DNA from: a virus
Length of the DNA: 44,092 nucleotides
Direction: 5' to 3' (one strand)
Virus record (IMG/VR): IMGVR_UViG_3300049846_000790
Location: 1-44,092 of that record
Shown here one piece after another: positions 6,027 to 24,193 of this stretch (positions are counted from its first letter, which is position 1; each line of letters opens with the position of its first letter). The notes under the pieces are model-generated. The model was given only the letters and a program-made list of their open reading frames with translations, was not told the origin of the DNA and did not search any database. A program made the translations under genes and the position numbers.

Positions 6027-8582
6027 CTAATATTGCTCATTCCAAAAATTGAGTTCTTCATCTACATTAAGAAGCTCTTCATGGTTTTCTGCAAGCCCTC
6101 TTGCAAATTTTTCTCGTTCACTCATTTCTTTTGGCGGTCTCTGATCAACTACTGTATTTACAGCAATCGGCGATACAGAGGTAAAATCCCACATGATAGT
6201 AGATGATGCGTAGCGTAGAGCATCAATCAAATCATTCTTAGCTTTTTTCTTATCTGTGTTGTGAGTGAAGTTCTCAAACTCTTCTGCAAGTTTAGTCGCG
6301 TTCTCACTTTTAAATATCTTAAGCATCTTAAATGATAGCAGTGAGTTCAATATCCCCTCACCTTTCATGTGATTCTTTTCAGCTTTCAAAAATGGCAGCC
6401 CTTGAGCCGCAGCTATATTTTTAGTGTCAGCACTAGCCCAATCATAATAAACGGTGTGGCGTGGCTCTCCATCCGCCATATACAAATATTTATTAACCAC
6501 GTCTTGTGCTGTCGTCACGACGCGATCACCACGCCAACACTTATAAACTACCCCAAATGTGTAGTCAGGATTAATTGCCAGAAACACAATGGCTGCTGGA
6601 TGCCCCGATTCCCCCCCAGATCCAACATCAATCCCGACTACACGTGACCACTCGGCGGGCACCGAAAATGGCTCAATCAAGTGTATTTCTCGATCAAACG
6701 ACGGGTAGACACGATTACTGTCAACTACAAATTTCCCCATTATACGACGTTCAATCTCTGATTTATTCGCACAACGTGCTATGGCCTGCTCTATCCTCTG
6801 ATTAGTCCATTTACTTTCACTCCCATCAGTATACTCCTGACAGTCATAAAGACTAACCTGCCAAACACGGGCTTCTTTTAATTCACTCTTCTTCTCAACA
6901 ACATTACGCCAATACTCTTGCCCTCGTGTTGCCGTAAAAACAAAATACATGTAACCATTAGTCGCGTTTACACGCATAGACAGCTCAGGCAACAATTCAA
7001 CTGGCACCTCTTCATCTAGTCCCATCATGTACACCGTTCCCGACTGAAGCATGTGTACGTCCTGCGCATACGTTTTAAAATAAATAGTCACACCACTATT
7101 AAAATCAACGGAGTGTATTTTACCATTAACAAAATTAGGCTTCCAACCATACTTCTCATGATCTGGATTACGTGGCATGTACTCACTCCACTTCTCATAC
7201 CACTCAATGGTCGCGACATCTTTAGAAGGATAACAATACCAGAACTGACTAGGCACTGGGTTATGCTTTGGCAAATCAGGCCAATACTTAGGCCACAACT
7301 CTTTAGTAGTCGCCACATGTATCATCTTGCGAATAAGTATGGATGAATTATGTGTGACTATGTAATTTTTAGTACAAAGATAACTTTCATCATCAGCACT
7401 AACAGATATGCACCTGCCTTTATGAGGTCCAATATATTTTATATTATCTATTACCTTTTCAAATTTATATCTATCTGTACTCTTCCAAAGATCTGATTTT
7501 CTTTTTGATTTAAAAGGATTAAATTTTGTCCATATATTAATTCTATAAGCTTTTTTACAAAAAACTTTTTCACCATTTTCATTCCTATAGAATGGTTTTT
7601 CTTTTACTTTTATTTGTGCAATTCCACCAAGACTATTTACAAGTTCTTTAAAGTCATTTGCCAACTGTTCTGATACGGTTGTGTACTCCGTTATTCCATT
7701 GTTTGTGTAAGCATCGGTATCTAATAGACCAGCTAAGATAGCCTTTCTTTGTTCTATCGAACCAAATAAATATTCTTTTGGTATAAATTTTTCATGAGAA
7801 ATCTTTTTATATAAACCTAAATCAAATAATTTTTCTTTTGCTTCTTTTAAGATACCTATCGTAAGTTTATCAGTATTATATCTATTACCATATTTTAAAC
7901 AATAATTGCTAAGGTCTGTATCTTCTGAATTAAATGAAATTGAGTGATCAGAACCGTTCCCAAGATAAAGACCAATATAGTAAGGATCAAATAATTCTTT
8001 TTCAAGATACTCCACTGGCTCACAATATGGTATTACATATTTTTTACCAGCTCTTGGTTTTCCATTTTTATAAGATTCTTCAAATATTTCCTTTGTGGAT
8101 TTTACAATCCATTTTCCATATTCTTTATTTGGAATAATGGTTTTTTCTTTATTATTTGATATATAATTTTTTCTAAATCTTTGTTTTTCACCCTTACATA
8201 TCCACAAATGATTTTGCCCTATTTTTACTTTATCTCCGTCTGAAAATTGTAATTCATAACTTTCGTCATATCCATCAAATGGAATATCTATAACCTTTGT
8301 TTTTTTTCCATCGCGAGAATAGACATAATCACCAACATTAATATCCTGTATTTTTTTATATCCATTTGTAGTTGGTATTAATTCATCGTATAAGTTATGC
8401 TTACCAAGCTGGTTTGCGGCAGTAACACACATGATTTTACTTCTGTCGTCATCAAAGAACTGCTTCATCCACCAGTAGAATTTATGTGAGTGTAGATGTG
8501 GCAACAAGTCGCGTTCACTCTGCTCTGCAAGCAAACGCTCCAACTTCATAGCCTTCAGGCGAAGTATCTCAGTCTCTTCCAC
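6027..8582 (-). CDS. terL: Terminase large subunit, interrupted by an intein
   Basis: The packaging motor ATPase and nuclease. The precursor has 851 residues; removing the intein (residues 62-412) leaves 500, normal for TerL. The extein rejoins to the Walker A AANQLGK-SS. Walker B is MMGLDEE (D523, E524), the coupling motif TATRG is at 551-555, and the RNase-H-like nuclease acidic residues are D652 (VGIDVGSG), D714 (VYYDWAS) and D784/D787 (NDLIDAL). Its ATG overlaps the end of the upstream gene by 14 bases, placing it directly after a TerS candidate. Activity would depend on splicing, because the ATP-binding loop is split. Confidence 0.95.
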   Translation of the reverse strand: MEETEILRLKAMKLERLLAEQSERDLLPHLHSHKFYWWMKQFFDDDRSKIMCVTAANQLGKHNLYDELIPTTNGYKKIQDINVGDYVYSRDGKKTKVIDIPFDGYDESYELQFSDGDKVKIGQNHLWICKGEKQRFRKNYISNNKEKTIIPNKEYGKWIVKSTKEIFEESYKNGKPRAGKKYVIPYCEPVEYLEKELFDPYYIGLYLGNGSDHSISFNSEDTDLSNYCLKYGNRYNTDKLTIGILKEAKEKLFDLGLYKKISHEKFIPKEYLFGSIEQRKAILAGLLDTDAYTNNGITEYTTVSEQLANDFKELVNSLGGIAQIKVKEKPFYRNENGEKVFCKKAYRINIWTKFNPFKSKRKSDLWKSTDRYKFEKVIDNIKYIGPHKGRCISVSADDESYLCTKNYIVTHNSSILIRKMIHVATTKELWPKYWPDLPKHNPVPSQFWYCYPSKDVATIEWYEKWSEYMPRNPDHEKYGWKPNFVNGKIHSVDFNSGVTIYFKTYAQDVHMLQSGTVYMMGLDEEVPVELLPELSMRVNATNGYMYFVFTATRGQEYWRNVVEKKSELKEARVWQVSLYDCQEYTDGSESKWTNQRIEQAIARCANKSEIERRIMGKFVVDSNRVYPSFDREIHLIEPFSVPAEWSRVVGIDVGSGGESGHPAAIVFLAINPDYTFGVVYKCWRGDRVVTTAQDVVNKYLYMADGEPRHTVYYDWASADTKNIAAAQGLPFLKAEKNHMKGEGILNSLLSFKMLKIFKSENATKLAEEFENFTHNTDKKKAKNDLIDALRYASSTIMWDFTSVSPIAVNTVVDQRPPKEMSEREKFARGLAENHEELLNVDEELNFWNEQY
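7347..8399 (-). mobile_element. Intein (class 3 type) with LAGLIDADG domain inside terL
   Basis: A 351-residue in-frame insert between Lys61 and Ser413 of the TerL precursor. It starts with HNLYDELIPTTNGYKKI (block A without Cys/Ser at position 1) and ends NYIVTHN followed by Ser. Block B has HLW (W66 of the intein), block F GRCISV (C330) and block G VTHN (T349), the W-C-T triad that defines class 3 inteins. The central endonuclease has motif 1 IGLYLGNG (142-149, N148 where Asp is usual) and motif 2 LAGLLDTDA (222-230, D229 kept). The insert looks more AT-rich than the flanking extein. Exact N-boundary is inferred from the uninterrupted Walker A of TerL. Confidence 0.9.
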
Positions 8583-21380: not shown

Positions 21381-21398
21381 AGGATAGGAGAATTATGA
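21381..21398. repeat. 18-bp leader repeat, copy 1
   Basis: AGGATAGGAGAATTATGA, containing a strong ribosome site and the ATG of the gene at 21395. An identical copy is at 21983-22000, and the ~12 bases before each (ATATATG/ATATCTC) are also similar. The two copies flank the 109-aa gene and the first hexamer array, so recombination between them would remove or double that cassette in frame of the leader. Confidence 0.75.
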
Positions 21399-21724
21399 AT
21401 ATAGAAAAAATAAAACAGGTAATTGAGTTATCTAAACTATTAGACGGTGAATCATGTGTTAGTGATTTTCCAATAGAGACAGGTAAAAATGTTTTTATTA
21501 GGACAGTAACTCTTTATTATACTGGGAAGCTTAAGAAAGTATGTGGGCAATTTCTAACTTTAGAAAACGCAGCTTGGATCGCTGATACTGGAAGATTTTA
21601 CGACTTTTTAAAAGAAGGAAAGGCAAACGAAGTTGAGCCCTTTCAGAGAGATGTACATATTCCTTTGTCATCTTTAATTGATGTTACTGAATTTGGGCAT
21701 AAATTACCTTCGGAGCAAAAATGA
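21395..21724 (+). CDS. Unknown early protein (109 aa)
   Basis: A 109-residue protein with an AGGAG ribosome site 6 bases ahead. A helical start (IEKIKQVIELSKLL) precedes a beta region (NVFIRTVTLYYTGKLKKVCGQFLTLENA). It ends PSEQK with its TGA overlapping the ATG of the (X)Ser repeat gene (ATGA at 21721). It resembles a small single-domain phage protein that I cannot name. Confidence 0.65.
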   Translation: MNIEKIKQVIELSKLLDGESCVSDFPIETGKNVFIRTVTLYYTGKLKKVCGQFLTLENAAWIADTGRFYDFLKEGKANEVEPFQRDVHIPLSSLIDVTEFGHKLPSEQK

Positions 21725-21972
21725 TTAATCAAACACTCAATCGAATTGGTTGGGAGTGGTCAGGGTCATGGTCACGGTCAGGGTCACGGTCAGGGTCAGG
21801 GTCACGGTCAGGGTCAGGGTCACGGTCAGGGTCATGGTCATGGTCAGGGTCACGGTCAGGGTCAGGGTCACGGTCAGGGTCATGGTCATGGTCACGGTCA
21901 CGGTCACGGTCAGGGTCACGGTCACGGTCATGGTCATGGTCAGGGTCACGGTCAGGGTCACGGTCATTATAA
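21721..21972 (+). CDS. (G/R/W)-Ser dipeptide-repeat protein (83 aa)
   Basis: After a short unique head ([13 protein letters not shown]) the protein is a run of Ser alternating with Gly, Arg or Trp, ending RSL. Of the 35 variable positions 14 are Gly (GGG), 13 Arg (CGG) and 8 Trp (TGG). The frame is chosen because its ATG overlaps the upstream stop (ATGA) and has a GGAG site; the other frames of the array are open too. Basic and aromatic residues spaced by Ser resemble low-complexity RNA- or condensate-forming peptides, which is inference. GGG/CGG/TGG codon use is unlike the AT-rich neighbours. Confidence 0.65.
21758..21967. repeat. Hexanucleotide array (GGTCAN), 35 units
   Basis: Thirty-five uninterrupted 6-bp units GGTCA[G/C/T]: 14 end in G, 13 in C, 8 in T and none in A. 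Every other base is invariant. Units 7-14 and 15-22 (21794-21841 and 21842-21889) are an exact 48-bp tandem duplication, which shows growth by slippage or unequal exchange. All changes in unit number keep the frame. Confidence 0.97.
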
Positions 21973-21982
21973 AAGATATCTC

Positions 21983-22000
21983 AGGATAGGAGAATTATGA
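21983..22000. repeat. 18-bp leader repeat, copy 2
   Basis: Identical to 21381-21398. It carries the ribosome site and ATG of the gene at 21997. See copy 1. Confidence 0.75.
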
Positions 22001-22281
22001 CAAACGACGAAGCTATGATCTCTCGTGAAACGGGGGATAATATGGATGATGTATGCAATGAGTTTTTAGATCATATTAAAGTGCCAATGAAATTAAGAGA
22101 TAAGTGTTCTATGTGTGGAAGAGATCGCTCCTTGTTGGATAAACTAGAAAAGCAGAATCAGGTTATGCACAAAGCACTTAAATATTACGCAGATCAAGAT
22201 AACAGTGAATGTATAACAGCACGTCAAGCGATGTGCGAAGTGGATAAATTAGAGAAGGAGAAATTATGGAAAATAAAATGA
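21997..22281 (+). CDS. Unknown early protein with Cys pair (94 aa)
   Basis: A 94-residue protein with an N-terminal acidic helix and C-SMC-G ([20 protein letters not shown]), then a coiled-coil-like helix ([11 protein letters not shown]). One CxxC pair alone cannot hold zinc unless it pairs with the later cysteines ([10 protein letters not shown]). AGGAG ribosome site 4 bases ahead of the ATG. Overlaps the next gene by 16 bases. Confidence 0.6.
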
Positions 22282-22570
22282 TAGGTAAAAAAGTAATAGT
22301 GAGAGCAAATATTGCAGGAGTACACGCAGGAATAGTTGAAAGTTTAGAAGGAACAACGATTATTTTAAAAAATGCTTATCGTCTTTGGAGAGTTTATACT
22401 CGTGATAAAACTGGCTCAATTTCTGATATTGCAGCTAATGGTTTAAAACCAGATGCTCAACATCAAATTGGAGCAAGATTAAAAAGTGTTCTAATTGAAA
22501 ACCCTAATGGATTAGAGGTTGCGGAAATGACAGATGATGCATATAAAAGTCTAGAAGGATTTGTTCAAAA

Positions 22571-22574
<4 letters not shown>
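22266..22574 (+). CDS. DUF6948-like phage protein (102 aa)
   Basis: A 102-residue protein: GKKVIVRANIAGVHAGIVESLEGTTIILKNAYRLWR, with the 'VIVR..AGV..G.....G....LKNAR.MW' pattern I associate with DUF6948 phage/plasmid proteins, a small beta domain of unknown role. It has AGAAGGAGAA before its ATG. The stop overlaps the ATG of the Gly-X repeat gene (ATGA at 22571). The family call is from memory of the pattern and moderate. Confidence 0.65.
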
Positions 22575-22794
<220 letters not shown>

Positions 22795-22798
<4 letters not shown>

Positions 22799-23220
22799 TA
22801 TTTTATAGAGATGGGTTGGAGGAGATAATTGATTCTCCACCAAAAATAAAAATAACTAGAGATGGACACACAGTTGAACAATATAGTGTTAAAGGAAAAA
22901 AGAAATTTTTCGTAACACTTTATAATCTACCTTTTTGTGCTCATGGAGAAACTTTAGAACAAGCTATTTCTGACGCTATATGGAAAGATGATAAAAGACG
23001 ACCTTCTATGGAATCTTTAAAATCTGAAATTCAATTAGAAGGTAAAGATAGAAAGATTACATTAAATGAGTTTAGGCTTTTAACAGGTGCTTGTTCTGAG
23101 GGATGTAGAATTGCTTTAAGAAAAGCAGGATTAGACGGTTCTCCAATGAAAGCCAGTGAGATAGTAAAAGAATTCCCAGAGTGGGGAAATAGATTGTTGG
23201 AAATATTGGAGTGGAAATAA
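22795..23220 (+). CDS. Unknown early protein (141 aa)
   Basis: The ATG at 22795 overlaps the stop of the Gly-X gene (ATGA). The protein (MIFYRDGLEEIIDSPPK...) has a beta N-terminal half with FCAHGETLEQAISDAIW, like small type-II-toxin-associated HicB-type folds, and a C-terminal helical half with LLTGACSEGCRIALRKAGL. A longer open frame in phase with it runs back through the repeat as (Leu/Arg)-Trp dipeptides, but it has no good start. Function unknown. Confidence 0.65.
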
Positions 23221-23382: not shown

Positions 23383-23615
23383 AACATAGAAAAGCTATTG
23401 AAGATAGCTGGGTTATTGCTCAAGTTATTTGTAAACTGTCTACGTCAAAAGGACTTATTAAAGGCACTTTAGACCCTGCTAATCCAAATACCAAAGAGAT
23501 TTTAGATGGTATAGATTACGCTTTGGATATTTTACTAGGAAAAGAAGATAAGCTTTCAGTTGAATCAGCAGGACAAATTTTAGATTATACGTTAAATTCG
23601 ATTAAGAAATTATGA
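23379..23615 (+). CDS. Unknown helical early protein (78 aa)
   Basis: A 78-residue helical protein (EDSWVIAQVICKLSTSKGLIKG, YALDILLGKEDKLSVESAGQILDYTLNSIKKL). Coupled by ATGA to both sides (23379 and 23612). No domain recognised. Confidence 0.6.
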   Translation: MKHRKAIEDSWVIAQVICKLSTSKGLIKGTLDPANPNTKEILDGIDYALDILLGKEDKLSVESAGQILDYTLNSIKKL

Positions 23616-24193
23616 AGGTTCTTGTAGCTTGTGAGTTTTCAGGCGTAGTCAGAGAGGCTTTTGCAAAGCGCGGGCACGATGCTTGGTCGTGCGACATTTT
23701 GCCGAGTGAAGATGGCTCAAGATTCCATATACAAGATGACATTAGGAAAGTTCTAAAAACGGCACCAATGCAATGGGATTTAATGATCGCACATCCCCCC
23801 TGTACTTATCTTTGTAATAGCGGCGTTTGTTGGCTCAAAGATAATGAAGAACGCTATGAAAAACTGCAAGAAGCTGCGGAGTTTTTCAGATTTTTAATGC
23901 ATCAACATTGGATTCCAAAGATCGCAATTGAAAACCCGATCATGCACAAATACGCAAAACAATTTATTGGGGGGATCGAGCAAACTCAAATTATTCAGCC
24001 TTGGCAATTTGGTCATGGAGAAACTAAAGCAACATGTCTTTGGTTGAAATATTTGCCCCCATTGAAGCCGACGAAGATTGTAGAAGGAAGAGAACAAAGA
24101 CTTCATAAACTTCCGCCAAGTCCAGACCGTGGAAAACTTAGATCAATAACATATCAAGGAATTGCTGAAGCTATGGCCAGACAGTGGGGGTAA
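23612..24193 (+). CDS. C5-methyltransferase-like protein, short form
   Basis: A 193-residue SAM-dependent-methyltransferase-like protein. Motif I region VLVACEFSGVVREAF, then SCDI, a PPC motif in AHPPCTYLCNSG (catalytic Cys position of C5 DNA methylases), and IENPIM similar to the ENV motif. It is much shorter than true C5 methylases (over 300 residues) and lacks a target-recognition domain, so it may modify DNA with little specificity, another substrate, or be a relict. ATGA overlap at its start. Confidence 0.75.
   Translation: MKVLVACEFSGVVREAFAKRGHDAWSCDILPSEDGSRFHIQDDIRKVLKTAPMQWDLMIAHPPCTYLCNSGVCWLKDNEERYEKLQEAAEFFRFLMHQHWIPKIAIENPIMHKYAKQFIGGIEQTQIIQPWQFGHGETKATCLWLKYLPPLKPTKIVEGREQRLHKLPPSPDRGKLRSITYQGIAEAMARQWG

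Follow-up and report, generated by a model that had tools for sequence, protein, structure and literature searches.

Small beta-barrel proteins with a disordered or low-complexity tail are known among the Sm/LSm and Hfq proteins, and eukaryotic Sm proteins bear RG-rich tails. The phage genes described here resemble these systems in that they encode a small barrel for which, according to predicted models, Sm is the nearest solved fold. However, they have no sequence match to these proteins, the tail is a separate gene, and this tail is a polymer with a period of two residues. The Pfam domain DUF6948 (PF22253) is an entry without a function. One of the two barrels at our locus (barrel 2) is a member of it, and the other (barrel 1) lies outside the Pfam model and is a distant relative according to profile comparison and structure search. 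For the polymer half no family was found in Pfam or PHROG scans, and a search of the open-access literature for the peptide strings and for DUF6948 returned nothing relevant. PHROG 18306 gives a weak low-complexity match to a Gly-X polymer (E 0.81) beside a match to DUF6948.

In a survey of low-complexity regions in prokaryotes and phages, aromatic residues and Arg were heavily under-represented (PMC6821194). These regions are Gly/Ser-rich, as are the polymers studied here, but in our case Trp and Arg each make up about one third of the variable residues X (as does Tyr in the sister type), and the repeat takes up the entire protein. Given the under-representation seen in the survey, this composition is therefore unusual. 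Bacterial GGTCAN microsatellites have the hexamer and the growth by whole units in common with our first array, but they carry a single base at the variable position and have neither a leader nor a barrel. The two-gene module, i.e. a barrel and a repetitive, probably sticky chain, is widespread in phages and appears not to have been described before.

The window is the whole stretch of viral DNA that was analysed, 44,092 nucleotides long (IMG/VR record IMGVR_UViG_3300049846_000790). An earlier note, made from its letters, had pointed out a gene made almost wholly of a 6-base repeat. The repeat does form a genuine gene, which encodes a serine-(glycine/arginine/tryptophan) polymer (21721-21972, plus strand), 83 residues long with a net charge of +13 and nine Trp. 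As the note had it, the gene contains 35 perfect GGTCA[G/C/T] units (array 1, 21758-21967, plus strand), read as TCA-NGG, i.e. Ser-[Gly/Arg/Trp]. The start and the ribosome site had also been read correctly: the gene begins with an ATG at 21721 that shares bases with the upstream TGA at 21722-21724, and GGAG (21712-21715, plus strand), identified by sequence within the 3' end of barrel gene 1, ends five bases 5' of the ATG. The leader (21721-21757, plus strand) consists of 12 residues followed by (W) and is one version of the leader pattern of its class, M-N-x-A-[IL]-L-R-x-G-[FYHW]-[DE]. When the leaders of relatives were compared, the closest were those of L332, MINQSIARAGWEW, and L336, MKNQALNRIGYEW. 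The gene does not stand alone, which the note had missed: it comes second in a barrel module, and a sister module adjoins it.

Directly upstream and on the same strand is barrel gene 1 (21395-21724, 109 residues), a predicted Sm-like small beta-barrel and the partner of the Ser-X polymer. The sister module consists of barrel gene 2, the DUF6948 member (22266-22574, plus strand), and a Gly-[Ser/Tyr/Asp] polymer of 75 residues with a net charge of -5 (22571-22798, plus strand), whose start overlaps the DUF6948 stop (22574). The two modules have the same layout, with the polymer start at 21721 against a barrel end at 21724, and at 22571 against 22574. The second 6-base array, 32 copies of GGC[TCT/TAT/GAT] encoding (Gly-[Ser/Tyr/Asp])n, lies in the same operon (array 2, 22592-22783, plus strand) and was not remarked on in the earlier note. 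Both arrays encode an alternating polymer with three X residues, each with one codon.

A gene of 94 residues with a CxxC motif and no family match (21997-22281, plus strand) lies between the modules. The string AGGATAGGAGAATTATG is found at 21381-21397 and again at 21983-21999 (plus strand), before barrel gene 1 and before the 94-residue gene, as if the stretch had once been duplicated. Downstream, a 141-residue protein with what we call the AHG-TL domain (22795-23220, plus strand) has no Pfam or PHROG family. It is a separate overlapping ORF here, and in L138, L149, L171, L173, L188, L211, L243 and L244 the Gly-X polymer bears the domain as a C-terminal fusion. The region of a DNA methyltransferase-like gene (23612-24193, plus strand) gives the only DNA-level matches to named phages (Desulfofustis phage, Cyanophage NATL2A-133 and Methanosarcina virus MetMV); in blastn of the region against named phages there was no long-range match, only these short ones. 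Among the relatives, the nearest neighbours of the modules are DNA methyltransferases, primases, helicases, RecE and replication initiators, and the setting is therefore an early or replication region.

Barrel gene 2 passes the Pfam DUF6948 cut-off (48.6 bits against 27, E 9.1e-13), and barrel gene 1 has no Pfam match at E 0.1, the DUF6948 model included. The barrels fall into DUF6948, found with Gly-X polymers, and two diverged classes, A and B, found with Ser-X polymers. In hhalign profile-profile comparisons class A, to which barrel 1 belongs, matches both the DUF6948 set (95.9%, E 6e-9) and, with 96.7% and E 3e-10, class B; the direct match of class B to DUF6948 is weak (14%). Neither the mixed DUF6948 alignment nor class B has a conserved stretch suitable as a search probe. 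AlphaFold2 models of barrel 1 (pLDDT 92, pTM 0.76) and barrel 2 (pLDDT 93.4, pTM 0.85) were compared with solved structures by Foldseek. For both, Sm/LSm proteins account for nearly all of the top PDB matches, with weak E-values (at best 2e-3 and 1e-2) and a target TM of up to about 0.8. The viral fold matches of barrel 1 include DUF6948 entries. A comparison of the barrel profiles with PDB sequences detected no solved relative and no known Sm protein, and the Pfam scan of the window barrels gave no match to the Sm family. Given the weak E-values and the missing sequence match, "Sm-like" therefore denotes a predicted resemblance in fold only, and not proven membership.

To find relatives, 2.9 million viral contigs were scanned for seven GGTCAN units, which gave more than 119 stretches at the least. 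Most of the long mixed arrays are open as a gene in the Ser-X frame, with a short leader in front and a stop at or adjoining the array end. The leaders are either of the M-N-x-A-[IL]-L-R-x-G-[FYHW]-[DE] type, as in the window, or of a basic type with Tyr-Arg-Ser at its end. Clustering of all the genes up to 5 kb away from arrays of either type brought out one strongly conserved neighbour: a small protein immediately upstream on the same strand, the barrel, present at 111 loci, with the one or the other polymer type, and at a median distance of 35 bases. The next cluster comprises 14. We also considered a RiPP precursor, but no conserved modification enzyme of the RiPP type was found near the arrays and the barrel is the only strongly conserved neighbour.

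For an unbiased test, viral loci were picked on the barrel sequence alone, and the 80 best, i.e. the nearest relatives, were inspected; these are metagenomic and partly redundant. Relatives of barrel 1 are encoded in 399 viral stretches, and among the best 80 of them a Ser-[GRW] polymer follows the barrel directly in 70 according to a simple rule and in 73 by eye. DUF6948 is encoded in at least 588 viral stretches of one virus collection; the barrel is directly followed by a Gly-X polymer in 78 of the best 80, and most of these polymer genes begin 7-13 bases inside the barrel gene. The overlap of ATG and barrel stop seen in the window recurs in 59 of 108 relatives of the class A-Ser-X type. 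The DUF6948 and Gly-X pair is also present in named phages identified by DUF6948 homology (Iodobacter phage phiPLPE, Pectobacterium phage Sabo, Dickeya phage Setonix, Vibrio phage IKEMa6-1 and Chlorobiaceae phage CV-1-33). The polymer is a first partner for this Pfam domain.

The pairing is specific for the class. By the simple rule there are 125 DUF6948-Gly-X, 108 class A-Ser-X and 34 class B-Ser-X pairs, and seven off-class pairs, several of which seem to be misassigned by the rule. No barrel was detected just upstream of 24 of 132 mixed Ser-X arrays and 19 of 160 Gly-X arrays, partly on account of tandem polymer copies. A barrel and a polymer fused in one ORF were not found among these loci. 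Taken together, the pairing and the reading frame argue strongly for a conserved two-gene module in which the array gene takes the second place. The module is common (399 class A and at least 588 DUF6948 stretches) and lies in the replication-recombination region, and neither half has an assigned function.

Some loci deviate from the simple arrangement. Whole polymer genes occur in tandem, with five Gly-X copies in L136 (1693-2971) and several Ser-X copies in L006, L347 and L374. An extra ORF lies between barrel and polymer in L346/L432 (the same contig) and in L459, where it is HNH-like; the polymer is kept. About 23 of the 160 barrel-selected contigs (L332-L411 and L415-L494) break off in the array, no more than 250 bases past the barrel, and about two do so on the upstream side. 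Such arrays are likely to be a reason for assembly breaks in phage genomes, and the module is therefore under-counted.

The earlier note had suggested looking for ORFs of the same hexamer in related phages. They exist, but GGTCA is just one codon variant of the family. The serine codon varies across phages (TCG, AGC, TCT, AGT, TCA) and is 98.9% uniform inside one array, which argues for selection on the peptide. Relatives whose array breaks every reading frame were not found, because the relatives retain exactly the Ser-X frame with other serine codons. GGTCA as a DNA-level binding motif was rejected since relatives encode the same serine by any of the five codons. The other frames (Gly-Gln/His and Val-X) were also rejected: their residues shift with the serine codon, and the stop at the array end fits Ser-X.

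In the barrel-selected set about 98% of the X codons are NGG (GGG 476, TGG 451, AGG 375 and CGG 179, against 31 others). The note had remarked that A is never used at the variable base, and indeed array 1 has 14 G, 13 C, 8 T and no A in 35 units (P about 4e-5 under equal use). The A is missing because nearly every array has a single Arg codon, AGG or CGG; the two occur together in 8 of 118 distinct arrays, compared with about 102 for independent draws of A and C. All but one of 73 arrays contain Gly, Arg and Trp together, with means of 35%, 36% and 29%. Where the barrels share less than 90% identity, the order of the X residues is no more similar between arrays than after shuffling, in a test that ignores ancestry. 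Codons thus change while the residue is kept, composition is steady and order is not conserved, and therefore identity, period and composition are maintained and order is not. Here nature provides, in two chemical versions, a protein selected for composition and period, and not for order.

As the note had proposed, arrays grow and shrink, and they do so by whole units. Relatives with 340 identical upstream bases differ by 7 (L036/L059), 10 (L404/L407) and 1 (L336/L337) units. The exact recurrence of units 7-14 as units 15-22, from which slippage had been deduced, is present in array 1, but an 8-unit block also arises when the unit order is shuffled, in 188 of 5000 trials, so that the duplication alone is modest evidence of slippage and the relatives are the better evidence. 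The picture of a coding, low-complexity and fast-changing polymer in the Ser-X frame is supported. The suggestion that it may stick to nucleic acid or to itself is plausible from its net charge and Trp content.

As a control, bacterial and archaeal genomes (257 billion bases) were scanned for at least 11 GGTCAB units, and 79 stretches were found. The variable base is pure or nearly pure in 78 of them. The sole exception, L289, combines a mixed array with the viral leader MNAAILRTGFDKS. A barrel gene was found upstream of none of 129 pure genomic arrays. The window array does not fit a microsatellite, i.e. one repeated unit with no coding constraint.

Pairing, frame, conservation of composition and not of order, and unit-wise length change can be read directly from the sequences, the Sm-like fold is a prediction, and leader docking, barrel oligomers and a condensate or ribonucleoprotein function are inferred. 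We propose that the module may consist of a Sm-like barrel and a low-complexity tail encoded in trans, docked by its leader, which would build a multivalent assembly early in infection, perhaps one that binds nucleic acid; we give this reading a little less than an even chance. The barrel and the Ser-X polymer would be made together through overlapping translation, and the polymer would dock on its own barrel via the conserved N-terminal leader, a class-specific leader on a class-specific barrel. The barrel, perhaps an oligomeric ring like that of Sm proteins, could then bear many copies of the flexible chain, in which Trp might serve as sticker, Arg as charge and nucleic-acid contact, and Gly/Ser as spacer. 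The result would be a multivalent assembly that binds itself and RNA or DNA during the early, replication-recombination phase. The DUF6948 and Gly-[Ser/Tyr/Asp] pair would be a sister module whose tail is acidic and built on Tyr. Both the length of an array and its X order would drift by gain and loss of units because only composition and periodicity matter. With a genetic system, sticker-and-spacer ideas are testable here.

The charges of the barrels are consistent with docking at the level of classes. Acidic barrels (mean -2.5 and -2.8) accompany the basic polymer, and near-neutral ones (+0.5) accompany the acidic polymer (mean net charge -8.9), a contrast between the three barrel classes with P 1.6e-7 in a rank test that ignores ancestry. 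Within the two large classes no correlation was found (A1 rho 0.12, A5 rho -0.10); the electrostatics thus agree with docking between barrel classes but not within the two large ones. A wider reading is a new class of phage assembly, in which a Sm-like ring would carry trans tails of nearly free sequence, fixed in composition and two-residue period, in a basic Trp/Arg and an acidic Tyr/Asp version, and would, in hundreds of uncultured tailed phages, form a compartment that contains RNA or DNA at an early stage of infection. We regard this as speculative and rather doubtful.

The strict period-2 alternation in all classes and across serine codons would also suit an ordered silk- or amyloid-like beta fibre, one face of which would carry Ser (or Gly) and the opposite face X. 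We consider such a fibre unlikely: the order of X is not conserved, Gly, Arg and Trp are mixed at random, and copying of a 6-base unit yields the alternation automatically.

The near-uniform NGG codons could instead mean that the array acts in translation, as a brake or a poison of host translation, by causing peptidyl-tRNA drop-off or by titrating rare tRNAs. NGG codons at the 5' end are reported to be suppressive via peptidyl-tRNA drop-off (PMC12204400), and this agrees with the X codons of the barrel-selected set. However, the sister Gly-X arrays, with the same architecture and partner fold, need no NGG (GGC plus NNT/NNC), and the serine codons are diverse and share no codon property. The composition is moreover kept near one third each. 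The third base is uniform in the Gly-X arrays too, and uniform codons therefore look like a by-product of repeat copying. An action in translation thus appears quite improbable.

Two small overlapping genes with the barrel made first also recall a toxin-antitoxin or host-takeover pair, in which a cationic Trp/Arg-rich polymer would harm the host in the manner of Trp/Arg-rich antimicrobial peptides and the barrel would restrain it. The net charge of +13, the nine Trp and the pairing of the basic polymer with acidic barrels fit this, but the sister polymer is acidic within the same architecture, and the fast turnover of units suits a role of composition alone. We find such a pair very unlikely.

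It is also conceivable that the basic Ser-X and the acidic Gly-X polymers jointly form complex coacervates, since the window (+13 and -5) and contig G063 each have the two modules in tandem. The two polymers are seldom in one record, with one clear case in 49, three in 50 and one in 50, which are lower bounds as many records are fragments; each module must therefore act alone, and coacervation as a general mechanism was mostly rejected and is highly improbable. A non-functional microsatellite open in frame by chance, to which the slippage-like gain and loss of units and the 8-unit duplication in the window array might point, is largely refuted and has a negligible probability given the leader, the start overlap, the near-universal barrel pairing, the class specificity, the codon changes with the residue kept, the stop directly after the array and the different look of bacterial microsatellites.

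Elsewhere in the window, the Walker A motif of the terminase large subunit (6027-8582, minus strand) is the site of an intein-like insert (ANQLGK / HNLYDELIP...IVTHN / SSILIRK). The first residue of the insert seems to be His and not Cys.
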